In this document: positions 54,887 through 61,960 of the stretch, piece by piece
How positions within the stretch are numbered: position 1 is the stretch's first letter
Layout: each line of letters opens with the position of its first letter
Assembly: GCF_015864665.1 (NCBI RefSeq)
Contig: NZ_JADYWU010000003.1
Location: forward strand, 3,399-67,398
Direction of reading: 5' to 3'
Source of the DNA: Salinibacterium sp. SWN167
Lineage (GTDB): Bacteria; Actinomycetota; Actinomycetes; Actinomycetales; Microbacteriaceae
Length of the DNA stretch: 64,000 nucleotides
The notes under the pieces: generated by a model
Told to the model about the DNA's origin: nothing
Databases searched by the model: none
The model's input: only the letters and a program-made list of their open reading frames with translations
Program-made: the position numbers and the translations under genes

Positions 54887-56257
54887 CTAGCTCTGGGCAA
54901 CGTTGCCGAGAGCAAGCCCCGAGAACATCTCTTCGTTGACGGCCCCGACCGCTGCAATAGAGAGGGGGCGCGACGAGAGTTCATGAGCAAGTTCTTGGAT
55001 GTCGTCGGCAGTAACTGCCGAGATGCGGGCAATGGAGGCGTCGAGGTCGACGAACTCACCGAGAGTGAGCTCACTGCGGCCGAGGCGTGACATGCGGGAA
55101 TCGGAGTCTTCGAGCGCGAGCGCTGACCCTCCCCGCAACTGGCCAATCGCACGGCTGATCTCTTCGTCGGTGACGTGGGCGGTACCTAGCTTGTGGAACT
55201 CCGCGAGCATCAGGTCAGTAACCTGGGTGACTTTCTCGGGCGAGCATCCGGCATAAATACCAAACACGCCTGCGTCGGAGTAGCTCGGTGAGAACGAGTA
55301 GACGGAGTAGGCAAGCCCGCGCTTTTCGCGCACCTCTTGGAAAAGGCGCGACGACATGCCGCTGCCCAGGATCGAGTTCAACACCGTCAGCGTTGCGCGA
55401 CGACTATCGGTCGCGGAGAGGCCTTCGACCCCGGCGATGATATTGGCCTGCTCGATGGGGCGATGCGTGACGTGCAGCCGTTGGCCCGGGGTCAGCACCG
55501 GAGAATGCGCGCTGCCAGAGAGGTCGCGACGCGCAACCGGAGCTGCTTCTACCGAGAGATCCCAGCCGGCCGAAACGAGGCACGCGGAAATCGCTGCTAC
55601 GAGTTCATCGTGGTCAACCGCCCCTGCCACCGTGATGACGAGGTCTTGCGGACGATAGTTGGCTTGGTAATGGTCCCAGACGGCATCGCGCGAGATCGCA
55701 TTGATGGTGTCGGGGCTTCCCCCAATAGGACGGCCGAGTGGATGAGCGCCGAACACGGCCTCGAAGTAGCGCTCGCTGGCAACATCCGTGGGATCGTCGT
55801 CGGCCATCGCCAGTTCTTCGAGAATGACGCCGCGCTCGTTAGCGAACTCGGTGGGATCGATGAGGCTTGACGTGAGCATGTCGCCGATGACCTCGATCGC
55901 CATCGGCAGGTCGATGTCTTGCACCTTGGCGTAGTAACAGGTGTATTCCTTGGCCGTCATCGCGTTGTGCTCACCGCCCACAGCATCGAAGCTCACAGCA
56001 ATGTCAAGAGCCGAACGCGCGGCGGTGCCTTTGAACAACAGGTGCTCAAGAAAGTGCGTGGCGCCGAATGTCTCGGGATGTTCGTCACGGGAACCGGCAG
56101 CAACCCAGTAGCCCACGGTTGCGCTGCGCGCTCCGGGTACTTGTTCGCTCAGAATGCGCACACCGCTCGGCAAAACAGTTCTACGAACGAGACTGTCGCC
56201 GGTTGCGGTGAACGACAGTTCGGGAAGGTCAAGAGGAAGAATTACAGCGTCGCTCAT
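54887..56257 (-). CDS. M16-family metallopeptidase (PepR-like)
   Basis: 456 residues from ATG 56257 (MSDAVILPLDLPELSF). The inverted zinc motif HFLEH is at residues 68-72 in GATHFLEHLLFKGTAAR, with the third ligand in VILEELAMADDDP. The two-lobed layout has a second domain from about 230. Actinobacterial relatives lie next to pnp; here other genes intervene. A longer frame upstream would run over the TetR operator and is unlikely. Confidence 0.9.
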   Translation of the reverse strand: MSDAVILPLDLPELSFTATGDSLVRRTVLPSGVRILSEQVPGARSATVGYWVAAGSRDEHPETFGATHFLEHLLFKGTAARSALDIAVSFDAVGGEHNAMTAKEYTCYYAKVQDIDLPMAIEVIGDMLTSSLIDPTEFANERGVILEELAMADDDPTDVASERYFEAVFGAHPLGRPIGGSPDTINAISRDAVWDHYQANYRPQDLVITVAGAVDHDELVAAISACLVSAGWDLSVEAAPVARRDLSGSAHSPVLTPGQRLHVTHRPIEQANIIAGVEGLSATDSRRATLTVLNSILGSGMSSRLFQEVREKRGLAYSVYSFSPSYSDAGVFGIYAGCSPEKVTQVTDLMLAEFHKLGTAHVTDEEISRAIGQLRGGSALALEDSDSRMSRLGRSELTLGEFVDLDASIARISAVTADDIQELAHELSSRPLSIAAVGAVNEEMFSGLALGNVAQS

Positions 56258-56347
56258 CACCACTGAGCCTACGTCATTTGTCTCTCTCCTGAGCCGATTG
56301 CTCAGATTCGGTCGGATTGCGTCCCCCATATTGGGGTGAAAAAAAGG

Positions 56348-56373
56348 GGACAGACAGACTTGTCTGTATGTCC
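56348..56373. promoter_or_regulatory. TetR operator dyad
   Basis: Arms GGACAGACAGAC and GTCTGTATGTCC flank TT: 11 of 12 positions are complementary. It overlaps the -35 box of the tetR promoter, the position expected for an autorepressor site. Confidence 0.6.
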
Positions 56374-56387
56374 TCACATGCTAATGT
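56360..56387 (+). promoter_or_regulatory. tetR promoter
   Basis: TTGTCT (56360-56365) and TAATGT (56382-56387) with 16-bp spacer. The start would fall near 56393-56396, just before the first ACCCGAA hairpin. Confidence 0.5.
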
Positions 56388-56395
56388 TCTTTCTA

Positions 56396-56543
56396 GGCAC
56401 CCGAAGCCGACAACCCATCATCCGGACCCGAACCGGTTGATGTAAACCACATAACCCAGACCCGAATCCGGGTTATGAAACAAACCGCATCGCTTGGACC
56501 CGAATCTAGCGATGCACATAGTGGGGACAGTTCCTGATCCGAA
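56396..56543 (+). promoter_or_regulatory. Tandem hairpin leader with invariant ACCCGAA loops
   Basis: Four copies of ACCCGAA (56399-56405, 56426-56432, 56460-56466, 56498-56504) each sit in the loop of a hairpin whose stem differs from the others but pairs perfectly. Stem 1 is GGC/GCC. Stem 2 is CATCA, T-T mismatch, CCGG with CCGG and TGATG. Stem 3 is CATAACCC/GGGTTATG with an inner A-C mismatch and G-C pair. Stem 4 is GCATCGCT/AGCGATGC, T-T mismatch and two inner pairs. A variant ATCCGAA (56537-56543) precedes the GGAAGGAG site of tetR. The array fills most of the 175-nt leader. I know no RNA family with this loop. Confidence 0.7.
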
Positions 56544-56567
56544 CCTCCACGGAAGGAGTGCGCTGCG

Positions 56568-57158
56568 ATGGTATTTGAGACACCAGAGACCGCGCAGCGC
56601 GCTCCGGCCAAAGGCCGCATCTTAGAGACGGCCAACACACTCTTCTACCAAGACGGCATTCTGAACGTCGGGGTAGACCGCATCATCGCCCAGTCGAGCG
56701 TGACCAAGGCAACCTTCTACAAGCACTACCGTTCAAAAGACAACCTCATCCTTGAGTACGTCAAGAGCCGCCGTGCCGCCGTTGAGGGTGACGTGCAGTC
56801 GATAATCGACAACGCCGCCTCACCGCACGACGCTGTTCTTGGCCTCCTGGAGTCAGTCGCTGCGGAGCTCACTAAGCCCGACTTCCGTGGATGCCCGTTT
56901 CTCAACGTTGTCGCAGAGTTCCCCGACCCGACGCACCCCGTCCGTATGCTGATCGCTGATCACCGCGACTGGTACAACGAGTCGCTCTACGAACTTATGC
57001 GCGCCGCAGAGCACCCCTTTGCCGGCGACGCCGCTGACGAGCTCATGCTCGCCAAGGATGGTGCCCTCGCCGGTGGCTACGCTGGCGACACCATCGCTGC
57101 TGGCGCCGCCATGGCCCGCGTGGTCAAGCGCGTACTCTCTGACTCAGTGAAGGTCTAG
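56568..57158 (+). CDS. TetR/AcrR-family transcriptional regulator
   Basis: 196 residues with N-terminal HTH (about 17-63, VDRIIAQSSVTKATFYKHYRSK) and an all-helical ligand domain containing GCPFLNVVAEFPDPTHPV. Related regulators of this subtype sense small hydrophobic compounds and repress neighbouring redox or efflux genes. GGAAGGAG lies 9 nt before the ATG. Operator-like dyad overlaps its own promoter, and a matching half-site precedes the aldo/keto reductase gene. The long hairpin leader is unusual for a tetR gene. Confidence 0.9.
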   Translation: MVFETPETAQRAPAKGRILETANTLFYQDGILNVGVDRIIAQSSVTKATFYKHYRSKDNLILEYVKSRRAAVEGDVQSIIDNAASPHDAVLGLLESVAAELTKPDFRGCPFLNVVAEFPDPTHPVRMLIADHRDWYNESLYELMRAAEHPFAGDAADELMLAKDGALAGGYAGDTIAAGAAMARVVKRVLSDSVKV

Positions 57159-57269
57159 CGACCCACCTGCGCGCCCGATTCCCCGTGACGGTGAGGCACG
57201 CTGACGGCTGGAACGAAGCAGTAGCGAGAGACGCGATCGACGCCAGAACGCGCCTGCTACAAACGCGCG

Positions 57270-58262
57270 TTAGAAGTTAGAGACGCGATCCAACTCGGCT
57301 GACTGGTGCCGCGTCAATTGCACGCGCGCCGCCGCGATGAGCTCAGGAACCTGCTCTGCACGGCTAGCGCTCACCACGGGTGCGACAACACCAGGCTTGT
57401 TCAAGAGCCACGCCAAAGCGATCGTCGCAACGCTTTCATCCTGCTCTTCGGCGACTCCGTCGAGAGCATTCAAAATCTTGATACCGCGGCGACGCAGGTA
57501 CTGCGCCGCATCGTGACCGCGCGAGTTGAGCGCCAGATCGGCACGCTGTCGGTACTTGCCGCTCAAGAACCCACTAGCCAGCGCGAACCGAGGCATCACA
57601 CCTAGGCCTTGAATGGCTGCCACGTGGGCGAGCCCGGTTTCGTACTCTTGGCGGTGAAGAAGGTTGTAGTGCGCCTGCACAGCCACCATGGGGGCAACGC
57701 CCATCTGACCGCACGCGATGCGCGCCTGGATAAGGCGATTGCCCGTGTGATCGGAACCGCCGAAGTAGCGCACTTTGCCTTCGCCGATAAGTTCGTCGAC
57801 CGCGAGCAGAGTCTCGTCGAAGTCGACACTCTCGTCATCGACGTGCAGGTACAAAAGATCGATGTGGGATGTCCCTAACCGCGCAAGCGAGGCATCCACC
57901 GAACGCTTGATGGCGTCCGCTTCCATGCCGGGGTTATCGCGGCTCTTGCCGACCTTGGTCGCCACCACAATCTGATCGCGATTGCGACGGACGCGCATCC
58001 ACTTTCCGATCATTAGCTCACTGCGACCAGAAGCATAGGAGTCTGCTGTGTCGATGAAGTTGCCACCGCCGTCGGCGAAAGCGTTGAGGATCGATGCTGT
58101 TGCAGCATCATCTGCGGTCCAGCCGAAGATGTTTCCGCTGAGCGCAACCGGGAAAACACGGAGGTCAGATGACCCGATTACCCGGGTAGAGAAATGCTGC
58201 CCAGTTACTGGACGCGCGCGAGTGGAACCCGTCAGTGATTGAGTCGGGTGCACCTGCGTCAT
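57270..58262 (-). CDS. Aldo/keto reductase
   Basis: 330 residues from ATG 58262, with GGGAGG 6 nt upstream. (beta/alpha)8 NADP reductase: catalytic Asp/Tyr in NFIDTADSYASGRSE, Lys in VVATKVGKS, His in LLYLHVDDESVDF. C-terminal NADP segment VVAPVVSASRAEQVPELI. Convergent with tetR; the shared half-operator suggests repression by the TetR protein. Substrate unknown. Confidence 0.9.
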   Translation of the reverse strand: MTQVHPTQSLTGSTRARPVTGQHFSTRVIGSSDLRVFPVALSGNIFGWTADDAATASILNAFADGGGNFIDTADSYASGRSELMIGKWMRVRRNRDQIVVATKVGKSRDNPGMEADAIKRSVDASLARLGTSHIDLLYLHVDDESVDFDETLLAVDELIGEGKVRYFGGSDHTGNRLIQARIACGQMGVAPMVAVQAHYNLLHRQEYETGLAHVAAIQGLGVMPRFALASGFLSGKYRQRADLALNSRGHDAAQYLRRRGIKILNALDGVAEEQDESVATIALAWLLNKPGVVAPVVSASRAEQVPELIAAARVQLTRHQSAELDRVSNF

Positions 58263-58320
58263 AACGGCCTCCCACAAGGCTTTTGGTAAGAATATGTCGC
58301 CACAGCACTGAATGGAGGGA

Positions 58321-58332
58321 GGACAGACAGAT
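58321..58332. promoter_or_regulatory. TetR half-operator upstream of the aldo/keto reductase
   Basis: GGACAGACAGAT repeats 11 of 12 bases of the left arm of the operator at 56348. The partner half is poor (GGAC ends match), so binding may be weaker. Confidence 0.45.
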
Positions 58333-58455
58333 CGTTATTAGTCCGTGTCGAAAACTGTCATTTTCGGGTCACACGCCCCGTGAAAGTGTCATCCGGACGT
58401 CATTCTCGTCATACTGGCCCCAGCGTCGTTTTTTGCAACCGAAAGGACAATCACC

Positions 58456-58986
58456 GTGAATGACCCCAACTGGAAACTGCCTCAAGTCCCCTCATTTGCG
58501 CTCGAAAGTCCCGACTTCGAAGAGGGCGGCATGCTTCCCCAGTGGGCTCGCTCCGGAATTGCGAATGCCGGCGGCGAAGATCGCTCCCCCACGTTGCACT
58601 GGCACGGCTTCCCTTCCGGCACGAAGAGCTTCGCGCTGACGGTCTTTGACCCTGATGCCCCCACCGGCAGCGGCTGGTGGCACTGGGCGGTCTACAACAT
58701 CCCCGCCTCCGTTGAGTCGTTGCCGCACGACGCCGGCAATCCGGATGGCCAACTCCTGCCCAACGGCGCAATTGCTCTTCCCAACGAACTGCGGCTCACC
58801 TCGTTCCAAGGAGCAGCCCCTCCCGCTGGCCATGGGCCGCACCGCTATGTCTTCACCGTGAGTGCACTCAACGTCGAGCGCCTCGACGTTGCCGAAGGAA
58901 GCACTCCCGCCATGCTGGGGTTCGCACTACGCGACCACATCGTTGCCCGCGCCCAGCTGATCGGCCTGTCGAGCACTAGCGAGTAG
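58456..58986 (+). CDS. YbhB/YbcL-family Raf kinase inhibitor-like (PEBP) protein
   Basis: 176 residues from GTG with AAAGGA upstream. PEBP fold motifs: DRSPTLHWHGFP, FALTVFDPDAPTGSGWWHWAVYNIP (the conserved Asp-Pro and His ligand-binding pocket) and GPHRYVFTVSALNVERLD. No signal peptide, so cytoplasmic, unlike E. coli YbcL. Function unsettled in bacteria. Divergent from the reductase over 193 bp. Confidence 0.88.
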   Translation: MNDPNWKLPQVPSFALESPDFEEGGMLPQWARSGIANAGGEDRSPTLHWHGFPSGTKSFALTVFDPDAPTGSGWWHWAVYNIPASVESLPHDAGNPDGQLLPNGAIALPNELRLTSFQGAAPPAGHGPHRYVFTVSALNVERLDVAEGSTPAMLGFALRDHIVARAQLIGLSSTSE

Positions 58987-59045
58987 CTCGCTTACGAAAC
59001 GCTCGGCCGAAAGCGCGCAGCAGAAAGCGCAGGCACGACGAGCAT

Positions 59046-59064
59046 CCCGTATCGGGAATACGGG
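59046..59064. terminator. Terminator after the PEBP gene
   Basis: CCCGTAT and ATACGGG (7 bp) with loop CGGGA lie about 60 bp beyond the PEBP stop, between convergent genes. Confidence 0.5.
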
Positions 59065-59092
59065 CAATCGGGAGAACGCGAGAGTCTCTGAC

Positions 59093-59245
59093 TTAGGTGT
59101 TACGGCGGTAGTAGTGCGGCACGCGTTCGTAGCCTCGGTTGCGCATCTTCGCAACAACCACGCTGACGACCACGACGATTACAACAATGCCGAGCGCCAC
59201 CCACAAATACCATGCGGTCTCTAGCCAAATGAGCATGTCGCTCAT
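59093..59245 (-). CDS. Small single-pass membrane protein
   Basis: 50 residues from ATG 59245: a short exterior part, one long hydrophobic helix (about 12-33, VALGIVVIVVVVSVVVAKM) and a basic, Arg-rich tail. No Shine-Dalgarno is obvious; a GTG 13 codons upstream would give 63 residues. Unknown; possibly a membrane-anchoring or stress peptide. Coding status is moderate. Confidence 0.5.
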   Translation of the reverse strand: MSDMLIWLETAWYLWVALGIVVIVVVVSVVVAKMRNRGYERVPHYYRRNT

Positions 59246-59410
59246 GAAGGCATCAAGAGGTGTAGTGATTCGGGTCACAACCACACAATAGCGCGGTAAC
59301 CCCCACCTAGCGGCACCCCAACGAAGGGCAGACTAGGGTGACTACCCCCTTTCTAGCTGTCATTTGCGCAAGAAAGTTTTCGTGCGCACACTCCCCCCGT
59401 GCCGTTAACG

Positions 59411-59447
59411 ACACAGCGCCCCTTCTCAACGAGAAGAGGCGCCGTGT
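59411..59447 (-). terminator. Terminator after pnp
   Basis: A long imperfect hairpin: GCGCC/GGCGC and CTTCTC/GAGAAG with bulges, closed by ACAC/GTGT. It starts 20 bp beyond the pnp stop on the minus strand. Confidence 0.6.
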
Positions 59448-59466
59448 GATGTGCGTTTAGCGGGAC

Positions 59467-61716
59467 TTAGCTTTCGTCAGCGGGAGCCGCTGCTTCTGCG
59501 TCAGCCTCGTCGAGGACGGGAGCAAGCGAGAGCTTGCCACGGTCATCGATCTTGGTGATTTCAACCTGAATCTTCTGGCCGACTCCGAGCACGTCTTCGA
59601 CGTTCTCAACACGCTTGCCACCGGCAAGCTTGCGAACCTCGGAGATGTGCAGCAGACCGTCTTTACCAGGGGTGAGCGAAACGAAAGCACCAAAGGTAGC
59701 GATCTTGACGACCGTACCCAAGAAGCGCTCGCCAACCTCAGGGTTGAGCGGGTTCGCGATAGCGTTGACCGCCGCGCGTGCAGCCTCAGCAGAAGGACCA
59801 TCGACAGCGCCGATGTAGACCGTTCCGTCATCCTCAATTGAGATGTCGGCTCCGGTGTCATCCTGGATCTGGTTGATGTTCTTGCCCTTCGGGCCAATCA
59901 GCTCACCGATCTTGTCGATCGGAATCTGAACCGAGATCACGCGAGGTGCCGTGGGGGCCATCTCGTCAGGAGCATCGATTGCAGCGTTGATCACCGAAAG
60001 AATCGCGGTACGCGCTTCTTTGGCCTGCTTGAGTGCACCGTCGAGAACCGACGAAGGCAAACCAGCGAGCTTGGTGTCGAGCTGGATAGCGGTGATGAAC
60101 TCACTCGTACCGGCAACCTTGAAGTCCATGTCGCCGAGAGCATCTTCAGCACCGAGGATGTCGGTGAGAGCTGCGTAGCGCGTGACGCCATCAACTTCAT
60201 CCGAGATCAGGCCCATAGCGATACCCGCAACCGGTGCGCGCAGCGGCACACCAGCGTTGAGCAGCGACAGAGTCGATGCACAGACGGAACCCATCGACGT
60301 TGAACCGTTGGAACCGAGAGCCTCGGATACCTGGCGGATCGCGTAAGGGAAATCTTCACGCGCAGGAAGCACCGGTGCGATGGCGCGCTCGGCAAGGAAG
60401 CCGTGCCCGATCTCGCGACGCTTCGGGCTACCAACGCGACCGGTCTCACCAGTCGAGTAGGGCGGGAAGTTGTAGTGGTGCATGTAGCGCTTCTTGGTCA
60501 CTGGTGCCAGTGAGTCAATCTGCTGCTCCATCTTGAGCATGTTCAGCGTGGTGACACCCAAGATCTGAGTCTCGCCGCGCTGGAAGATTGCCGAACCGTG
60601 AACGCGAGGAATGACCTCAACCTCAGCATCGAGCGCACGAATGTCGCTCAAGCCACGGCCGTCGATACGGATGCCCTCGGTAAGGACGCGAGTGCGCATG
60701 ACCTTCTTGCTGACGGCCTTGTACGCTCCGCCAACCATGCCGAGAACGTCTTCGCCGAGTTCTTCAGCGTCGACCTTGGACTGAACCTCAGCCTTGACGC
60801 GAGCCTTGAGCTCGTCATCAGCGGTCTGGCGCTCGATCTTGTCCGCGATCTTGTAGACATCGCGAAGCTCAGCTTCAGCGATTTCGCTTACCGCGTTGTA
60901 CGCCTGGTCGGAGTACGGCGGGAAGAGCTTGAACTCGGCAACGGGCTTGGCAGCCTTGGTCGAGACCTCGAGCTGAGCCTTCACAAGCTGCTTGAGGAAC
61001 GGCTTGGAAGCTTCGAGACCCTGAGCAACAACAGCCTCGTCGGGCTTGGTCGCGCCAGCCTTGATGAGCTCCCAGCTGTTCTCGGTAGCTTCTGCTTCCA
61101 CCATCATGATGGCGATGTCTTCTTCACCCTTGTCGTTGGTGACCATGCGGCCAGCAACGGTGAGGTCGAAGACAGCGTCAGCAAGCTGGCTGTACTTCGG
61201 GAAGGCAACCCACTGGTCGTTGATCAAAGCCATGCGGATGCCGGCAACCGGACCATAGAACGGGAGTCCTGAGATCTGGGTGCTGAGCGATGCGGCGTTG
61301 ATCGCGAGAGCGTCGTAGAACTCGTCCGGAGCGATGCTCAGAACAGTGATGACGATCTGAACTTCGTTGCGGAGACCCTCAACGAACGTCGGACGCATCG
61401 GACGGTCGATGAGACGGCAGACAAGGATCGCTTCCGTGGAGGGACGACCCTCGCGGCGGAAGAAGCTTCCGGGGATCTTGCCGGCAGCGTACGAACGCTC
61501 TTCGACATCCACGGTGAGCGGGAAGAAGTCGAAGCCTTCACGCGGGTGCTTACCCGCGCTCGTGGCGCTCAAGATCATTGTTTCTTCGTCGAGGTACGCA
61601 GCAACGGCACCCTGTGCCTGCTGAGCGAGTCGACCGGTTTCGAAGCGCACGGTGCGCTTGCCGAACTTGCCGTTATCGAGAACGGCTTCGGCGAATGTGA
61701 TTTCTGGACCCTCCAT
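59467..61716 (-). CDS. pnp: Polyribonucleotide nucleotidyltransferase (PNPase)
   Basis: 3'-5' phosphorolytic exoribonuclease, also able to add tails; 749 residues from ATG 61716 (AAAGGAG upstream). Two RNase PH domains flank a helical domain. The second carries the active-site segments [24 protein letters not shown] and [20 protein letters not shown]-terminal KH ([16 protein letters not shown]) and S1 ([15 protein letters not shown]) domains bind RNA. Its usual partner rpsO is not adjacent. A structured leader suggests autoregulation. Confidence 0.97.
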
Positions 61717-61740
61717 GCGGGGGTTTCTCCTTTGTTTTAC

Positions 61741-61960
61741 GTCGCGCACCCGTGTGGTGTGCGACTCGTCAAGGAGCAGGAGCGGGCAGAAGGACGCGAT
61801 GGTTCATGCGCATGCCTAGAGTGGCGGCGCATGTCTGGCCAACAGTAGAAAGCCTCCGAACGACTCGGAAAATTACCACCGGTGACCAGCTTCTTGCCAG
61901 CCTGCTCCGTGCGTTGCCCTCTAACTAGCAGGACAACTCCCCTAATCGTAGCACCGGGGG
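61741..61960 (-). promoter_or_regulatory. Structured 5' leader of pnp (Actino-pnp-like candidate)
   Basis: On the minus strand the 200 nt before pnp hold a hairpin near the start codon (61741-61765, 9-bp arms with one mismatch). A 7-bp CATGCGC/GCGCATG stem lies at 61805-61833, and CCGA-GTCGT-TCGG sits near 61860. Actinobacteria have a described Actino-pnp leader element; I cannot confirm a match by eye. A TACGAT -10 candidate lies near 61946-61951. The rest of 61717-62036 shows no gene. Confidence 0.5.

Follow-up and report, generated by a model that had tools for sequence, protein, structure and literature searches.

The tetR leader of Salinibacterium sp. SWN167 repeats one short sequence, ACCCGAA, several times within a region predicted to fold strongly. 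In the current study, we asked whether these repeats form an RNA element and, if so, what might read them. An initial annotation of the 64,000-nt stretch of DNA analyzed here (the window) described four exact heptamers and one variant, 27-39 nt apart, and took a constant loop on varied, complementary stems to be the mark of an RNA element.

The gene downstream of the repeats (56568..57158, + strand) encodes a 196-aa protein with a TetR_N domain (E 4.5e-11) and a C-terminal TetR_C_13 match below the family cut-off; its nearest named relatives, at 97% identity, are from Salinibacterium. Between tetR and a divergent M16 peptidase gene lie an operator, a presumed promoter and a leader of ~172 nt. 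The operator, GGACAGACAGACTTGTCTGTATGTCC (56348..56373, +), is a TetR-type palindrome that is kept in the tetR leaders of relatives and is the sole match in the genome at up to 3 mismatches in 24 positions. It overlaps the −35 element (TTGTCT, 56360-56365) of the presumed promoter (56360..56387, +), whose −10 element is TAATGT (56382-56387); this promoter was placed by eye, as was the presumed transcription start at ~56394-56396, and is absent from the list returned by a consensus promoter scan. About 12 nt 5′ of the operator is a second palindrome, CCCCCATATTGGGG (56323-56336), and similar CCCC-N-GGGG stretches occupy the same place in many relatives and also lie 5′ of the Salinibacterium SipW-type gene. 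Across 54887-61749, the M16 peptidase gene and a pnp-like gene (the latter identified by eye) flank tetR, an aldo/keto reductase gene and a PEBP-family gene. Upstream of the aldo/keto reductase gene (~58263-58412, −), one ACCCGAA is accompanied by CGATCTGTCTGTCCTCC, a sequence similar to a TetR operator half, and this gene may be a TetR target. A leader peptide was considered and rejected, as the ATG overlapping the −10 element is not kept (ATT in L016) and not every repeat spacing (27, 34, and 38) is divisible by three.

The ACCCGAA array and its predicted fold

Exact copies of ACCCGAA begin at 56399, 56426, 56460, and 56498 (+), with spacings of 27, 34, and 38 nt, and the variant ATCCGAA follows 39 nt later at 56537 (+), in agreement with the initial annotation. 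The window holds 18 copies on its two strands against 7.4 expected, a number reached in none of 100 shuffles, and four copies within 106 nt of one strand are far beyond chance. Held to a rigid 7-nt loop register, the array sites have 3, 4, 1, and 2 closing pairs, and a small register shift improves pairing at the third and fourth; outside the array, 1 of the 14 window copies is closed by at least three contiguous pairs. The leader with the first tetR codons (56392-56640) folds at −102.6 kcal/mol (z −7.9), and none of 200 shuffles was equally stable.

The predicted fold places ACCCGAA, or at least its CCCGAA portion, in the loops of four hairpins. Hairpin 1 (56396..56408, +), GGC[ACCCGAA]GCC, sits at the presumed 5′ end of the transcript, and hairpin 2 (56416..56442, +), CATCA.CCGG[ACCCGAA]CCGG.TGATG, also shows the whole heptamer. 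The first A of the heptamer is paired in hairpin 3 (56450..56477, +), CATAACCC.GA[CCCGAA]TC.GGGTTATG, and in hairpin 4 (56487..56515, +), GCATCGCT.GGA[CCCGAA]TCTAGCGATGC. The variant copy had been counted as a fifth loop, which is one too many: hairpin 5 (56521..56550, +) is predicted to have the loop CTGATCC, with the end of ATCCGAA in its 3′ arm. The sequence of this hairpin is nearly constant, and an alignment-based fold gives an alternative pairing for the region. Likewise, a T-T mismatch had been noted in stems 2 and 4; stem 2 has it, but stem 4 has a bulged T instead, and the feature is not kept in relatives. As a separate observation, ACCCGAAGCC, a sequence shared with hairpin 1, occurs in sense orientation near the 3′ end of the 16S rRNA gene (425-431, −).

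In a sixth hairpin (56555..56605, +), overlooked in the initial annotation along with the recurrence of the motif in other leaders, tetR codons 8-13 pair with GGAG and the region around the start codon. Judging from the fold and from comparison across the family, this hairpin is predicted to hide the tetR start codon along with its Shine-Dalgarno sequence. The arms of this start lock co-vary across the Microbacteriaceae, with GGAGTGCGCTGCG facing CGCAGCGCGCTCC in the window, GGAGACGTTGTGCCTCTCG facing CGAGAGCACAACGTCCTCC in L032, GGAGCACGCTGTG facing CACAGCGTGCTCC in L127, and GGACGCCG facing CGGCGTCC in L123. The duplex has a median energy of −29.3 kcal/mol, and 43 of the 54 leaders that could be scored, from a set of 60, have a z below −2, with the other 11 above. 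The residues QRAP are very constant in an otherwise loose TetR N-terminus, and this constancy may exist because the start lock pairs there.

Stem covariation and loop identity in related leaders

Orthologous tetR leaders were collected from the genome itself, 28 further genomes and 80 named loci, giving 96 distinct leaders; relatedness was handled by dropping similar sequences rather than by a tree, and many placements were judged by eye. Among ten close leaders, 96.2% of cells are paired in the structure model, a figure biased in the model's favor since the structure was derived from these same leaders. Changes on both sides occur in 13 of 64 pairs against 5.0 after shuffling, with none of 500 shuffles as high, and pairing falls to 32-43% when partners are slid by 1 to 3 columns. 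Most of this covariation comes from hairpin 2 (two-sided changes in 4 of 9 pairs) and hairpin 3 (7 of 9, with 82% of cells paired). Hairpin 4 contributes 1 of 9 pairs, hairpin 6 hardly varies and has one such pair, and hairpin 1 gives no covariation evidence because it is invariant in the ten leaders.

In the wider set of leaders, the flanks at 76 distinct NCCCGAA sites form 4.9 of 8 possible pairs, compared to 3.2 when flanks are re-dealt (maximum 3.9 in 1000). In 60 non-redundant tetR leaders, 54 (90%) have a fold z below −2, and the 325 predicted loops contain CCC in 174 cases (58 when shuffled, maximum 72) and CCCGA in 71 (3.25 when shuffled, maximum 8). CCCGA lies wholly within loops at 66 of 118 sites in the tetR leaders, versus 5-15 of 130-155 with shuffled flanks. 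Stems in relatives thus change with compensation while the loop stays constant. The loop is ACCCGAA in Salinibacterium and several other genera, and runs of C replace it in Curtobacterium and other leaders; at least one NCCCGAA is present in 51 of the 96 distinct leaders.

No Rfam 15 family matches the leader, the two sub-threshold matches (E 1.5 and 4.7) being to unrelated families. A covariance model of the hairpins, for which E-values are rough, gave three matches at E < 0.1 among the 150 candidates scored, out of 1340, in the genome, all within the tetR leader. Sixteen further matches outside tetR (12 in the genus, 4 in the genome itself) lie, by eye, in coding stretches or terminators, and no second conserved array was seen among them. 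Taken together, stem covariation, the lack of an Rfam match and the confinement to the leader of the E < 0.1 model matches in the genome uphold the initial view of an RNA element.

Several known elements offer partial parallels. Mini-ykkC (guanidine-II) RNAs have two hairpins with identical ACGR tetraloops on variable stems, and the array shares with them one loop on variable stems, but its loop is ACCCGAA; ACGR loops are absent from the tetR leader, as first noted, and so is a match to the family in Rfam. CsrA/RsmA sites in leaders likewise consist of several short motif copies in loops, some at the start region, and their targets include biofilm genes; the motif there is GGA, whereas the loops here read ACCCGAA or CCCGAA, and on this ground we discount CsrA as the reader.

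The motif upstream of other genes

A search for three-copy ACCCGAA patterns gave matches in 40 of 299 genomes of the family, compared to 9 for a reversed control (our own count). Of 30 such loci inspected by eye, ~18 precede genes and ~12 are coding-repeat-like or ambiguous. Order-wide, 29 of 297 genomes matched versus 22 for the control (again our own count) and the matched strings mostly resemble coding repeats, so this search gives no indication that the system extends beyond the family. Within the family, three-copy arrays precede TIGR04089 SipW-dependent protein genes in two genera (L202, L199), a GT2 glycosyltransferase gene with a distant, below-cut-off cellulose synthase match (L184), a secreted beta-propeller protein gene (L183), a small-protein gene with a zinc-ribbon match below cut-off (L193) and further unrelated genes. 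Some arrays, such as that of L199, hold copies without stems. At a small conserved protein gene (L193:1500-1560, and also L192 and L194), ACCCGAA falls within or close to a hairpin loop, and CTTACCCGAA lies near the start codon with no clear Shine-Dalgarno sequence.

In the genome studied here, the TIGR04089 gene leader has a CCCGAA hairpin and two more copies of ACCCGAA. By eye, this gene is the first in an apparent SipW operon (L390:5208-9060, −), where the next genes are two whose signal peptides look SipW-type and one that resembles a signal peptidase gene; no candidate reader gene was seen among the operon's neighbors. Related Salinibacterium keep the leader motif with variation, the first loop being altered in L239, L242, and L243, and two distant relatives (L247, L248) have no CCCGAA before the SipW-type gene. 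The tetR gene and this operon are the only carriers known in the genome, which is few for a general regulator, and leaders at large show no general enrichment (7 copies of ACCCGAA in the 39 kb of 332 upstream regions, with the tetR leader accounting for 3).

Matches to TIGR04089 were found in 84 of 199 genomes, and 80 non-redundant upstream regions of 250 nt formed a SipW-type test set, with expectations taken from a first-order model. ACCCGA occurs 86 times in these regions against 11.8 expected, at least twice in 23 of them, compared to 6 occurrences of its reverse complement and 3 of ACCCGA in the next 150 nt upstream. By this ratio it ranks second among frequent 6-mers, behind the Shine-Dalgarno-like AAAGGA. 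The full ACCCGAA is present 47 times (~2.4 per kb), and around tetR outside its leader the density on both strands is 0.087 per kb. The upstream regions are mildly structured (median z −1.6). Because 24 of 128 CCCGA sites have a flanking stem of at least 5 pairs (7.3 when re-dealt, maximum 16) and 26 of 124 (21%) lie in predicted loops (versus 7-15 of 149-164), presentation in loops falls short of that seen in tetR leaders yet exceeds chance. In the predicted folds, many SipW-type copies seem to be unpaired or to sit in other settings. A 400-kb sample of the genome showed no stem excess at 56 ACCCGAA sites (2 vs. 5.2). In a few leaders, e.g., L326, L304, and L267, copies lie at or near start codons.

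TetR itself may connect to the same genes. A weight matrix built from 32 tetR operators, with its threshold at 99% of shuffles, found operator-like sites before 10 of 90 SipW-type genes where ~1 is expected, and four of them exceed all 450 shuffles; three of the ten regions are near-identical Salinibacterium sequences, including that of the genome studied here. The site in this genome is weak and was missed by the direct search at up to 3 mismatches. These sequence matches suggest that TetR may control some SipW-type genes. In addition, two SipW-type genes of one genus (L314, L280) lack ACCCGA and have upstream TetR-operator-like palindromes that beat all shuffles.

A candidate loop reader and its alternatives

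The loops, covarying stems, start lock, and the recurrence and strand bias of the motif in other leaders were computed; the reader, its protein nature, the direction of its effect and the binding of TetR to operator-like sites we infer. We propose that the leader acts in cis as a post-transcriptional control element. Four of its hairpins would expose ACCCGAA in single-stranded form for recognition in trans by a reader, most likely an RNA-binding protein engaging several copies at once, and the last hairpin would conceal the tetR start codon together with its ribosome-binding site. Binding would alter translation (or stability) of the tetR mRNA, atop autorepression via the operator, and the same reader would also target Microbacteriaceae leaders that precede genes for SipW-dependent, TasA-like proteins. 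By analogy, copies of one loop on free stems, in the leaders of a few genes and sometimes at the start codon, have the layout of multi-site RNA-binding-protein targets; CsrA and ANTAR proteins are comparable regulators that act on translation. Of the three roles first offered for the array, such a multi-site target is the one most strengthened, given that other leaders carry the motif too and that it touches the start codon in a few of them, while a private titrating RNA becomes less likely and a ligand-sensing leader finds no support. We put at about even the chance that the leader is a multi-site target of a reader that acts in trans on the loops and is most likely a protein, though not an ANTAR protein that keeps to the loop rule. 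Counted against this reading are the modest loop share in the SipW-type set, the relatives with altered loops or none, the few carriers in the genome and the C runs of Curtobacterium.

ANTAR proteins recognize the loops of tandem hairpins, in Actinobacteria often at the ribosome-binding site or start codon, and a member with a shifted loop rule is a possible but unlikely reader. ANTAR domains were found in each of the 27 genus genomes searched, with three in this genome, and their carriers are the first candidate readers. By its fold and the ten-leader comparison, the tetR leader has the tandem stem-loops of ANTAR-target RNAs, such as those read by EutV, AmiR, and NasR. A published actinobacterial set includes targets that overlap the ribosome-binding site or start codon and some that lie before TetR genes, and A1 and G4 are conserved in that set only a bit over 50% of the time (PMC8164766). 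The stated rule is a pair of hexaloops whose first base is A and whose fourth is G (PMC8164766, PMC3369931), and mutation of either position weakens EutV binding (PMC3369931). Here, up to four loops of 6-7 nt read CCCGAA or ACCCGAA. The hexaloop CCCGAA does have G at position 4, but its position 1 is C, and the G of ACCCGAA falls at position 5. Overall, A..G.. fits 1 of 68 hexaloops in the 60 tetR leaders and 6 of 81 in SipW-type leaders, consistent with the initial statement that the loops are not of the ANTAR type.

Alternatively, a small or other RNA bearing UUCGGG(U) could pair with the loops, or the leader could itself be a small RNA with C-rich loops akin to 6C RNA, a pair of options we consider rather improbable. 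The likeness of 6C RNA (RF01066) lies in its actinobacterial hairpins with C-rich loops, and one Curtobacterium tetR hairpin is identical to Salinibacterium 6C RNA loops over GATTCCCCCCAA, 12 nt; nevertheless, 6C RNA is a separate small RNA with two hairpins, and at gathering score neither the window nor any of 10 related tetR loci yields a match to its model. Among the candidates scored, 6C RNA was found at E up to 0.001 in at least 11 of 25 genomes of the genus and was not found in the genome studied here. Among 31 distinct tRNA genes checked, the anticodon loop of tRNA-Pro(CGG), TTCGGGA, would give six pairs with CCCGAA. We rejected this partner, as the first loop base at the 76 NCCCGAA sites is A in 61 and T in 2, the opposite of what pairing with A38 needs. 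Moreover, one leader has more loops than an antisense RNA needs.

The strong start lock and the hairpin at the presumed 5′ end would also fit a leader with no dedicated reader, in which TetR is held low by the stability of the 5′ end, by standby sites for the ribosome and by the lock, and the loops are kept for local reasons. We find this decidedly unlikely, as it leaves unexplained both an exact common loop on unrelated stems and the motif upstream of other genes. Short sites repeated upstream of genes, including stemless copies in arrays such as that of L199, might suggest a DNA-binding site of a transcription factor, but the strand bias (86 vs. 6), the position of the array after the presumed tetR promoter and the compensatory stems around the sites make this highly improbable.

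Returning to a trans-acting protein as the reader, if SipW-type leaders share it and some resemble TetR targets, then one loop motif would couple a repressor to part of its regulon. It is conceivable, although we hold it to be somewhat short of an even chance, that an undescribed Microbacteriaceae regulator reads ACCCGA(A) in RNA loops with CsrA-like logic and couples a TetR repressor to SipW-dependent, TasA-like genes through shared leaders. To our knowledge, Actinobacteria have few known RNA-binding regulators for which targets have been defined. No report of such a loop array was found in the titles and abstract openings of the papers surveyed, and Hfq has not been found in Actinobacteria by sequence searches (PMC6789036). 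A short, exactly kept, multi-copy loop is a good bait, and one pull-down could seek its reader. If the link to SipW is true, it would show how TasA-like proteins are controlled at the RNA level in these bacteria, and the recurrence of the motif in tetR and TasA-like gene leaders hints at an undescribed system of RNA-level control.
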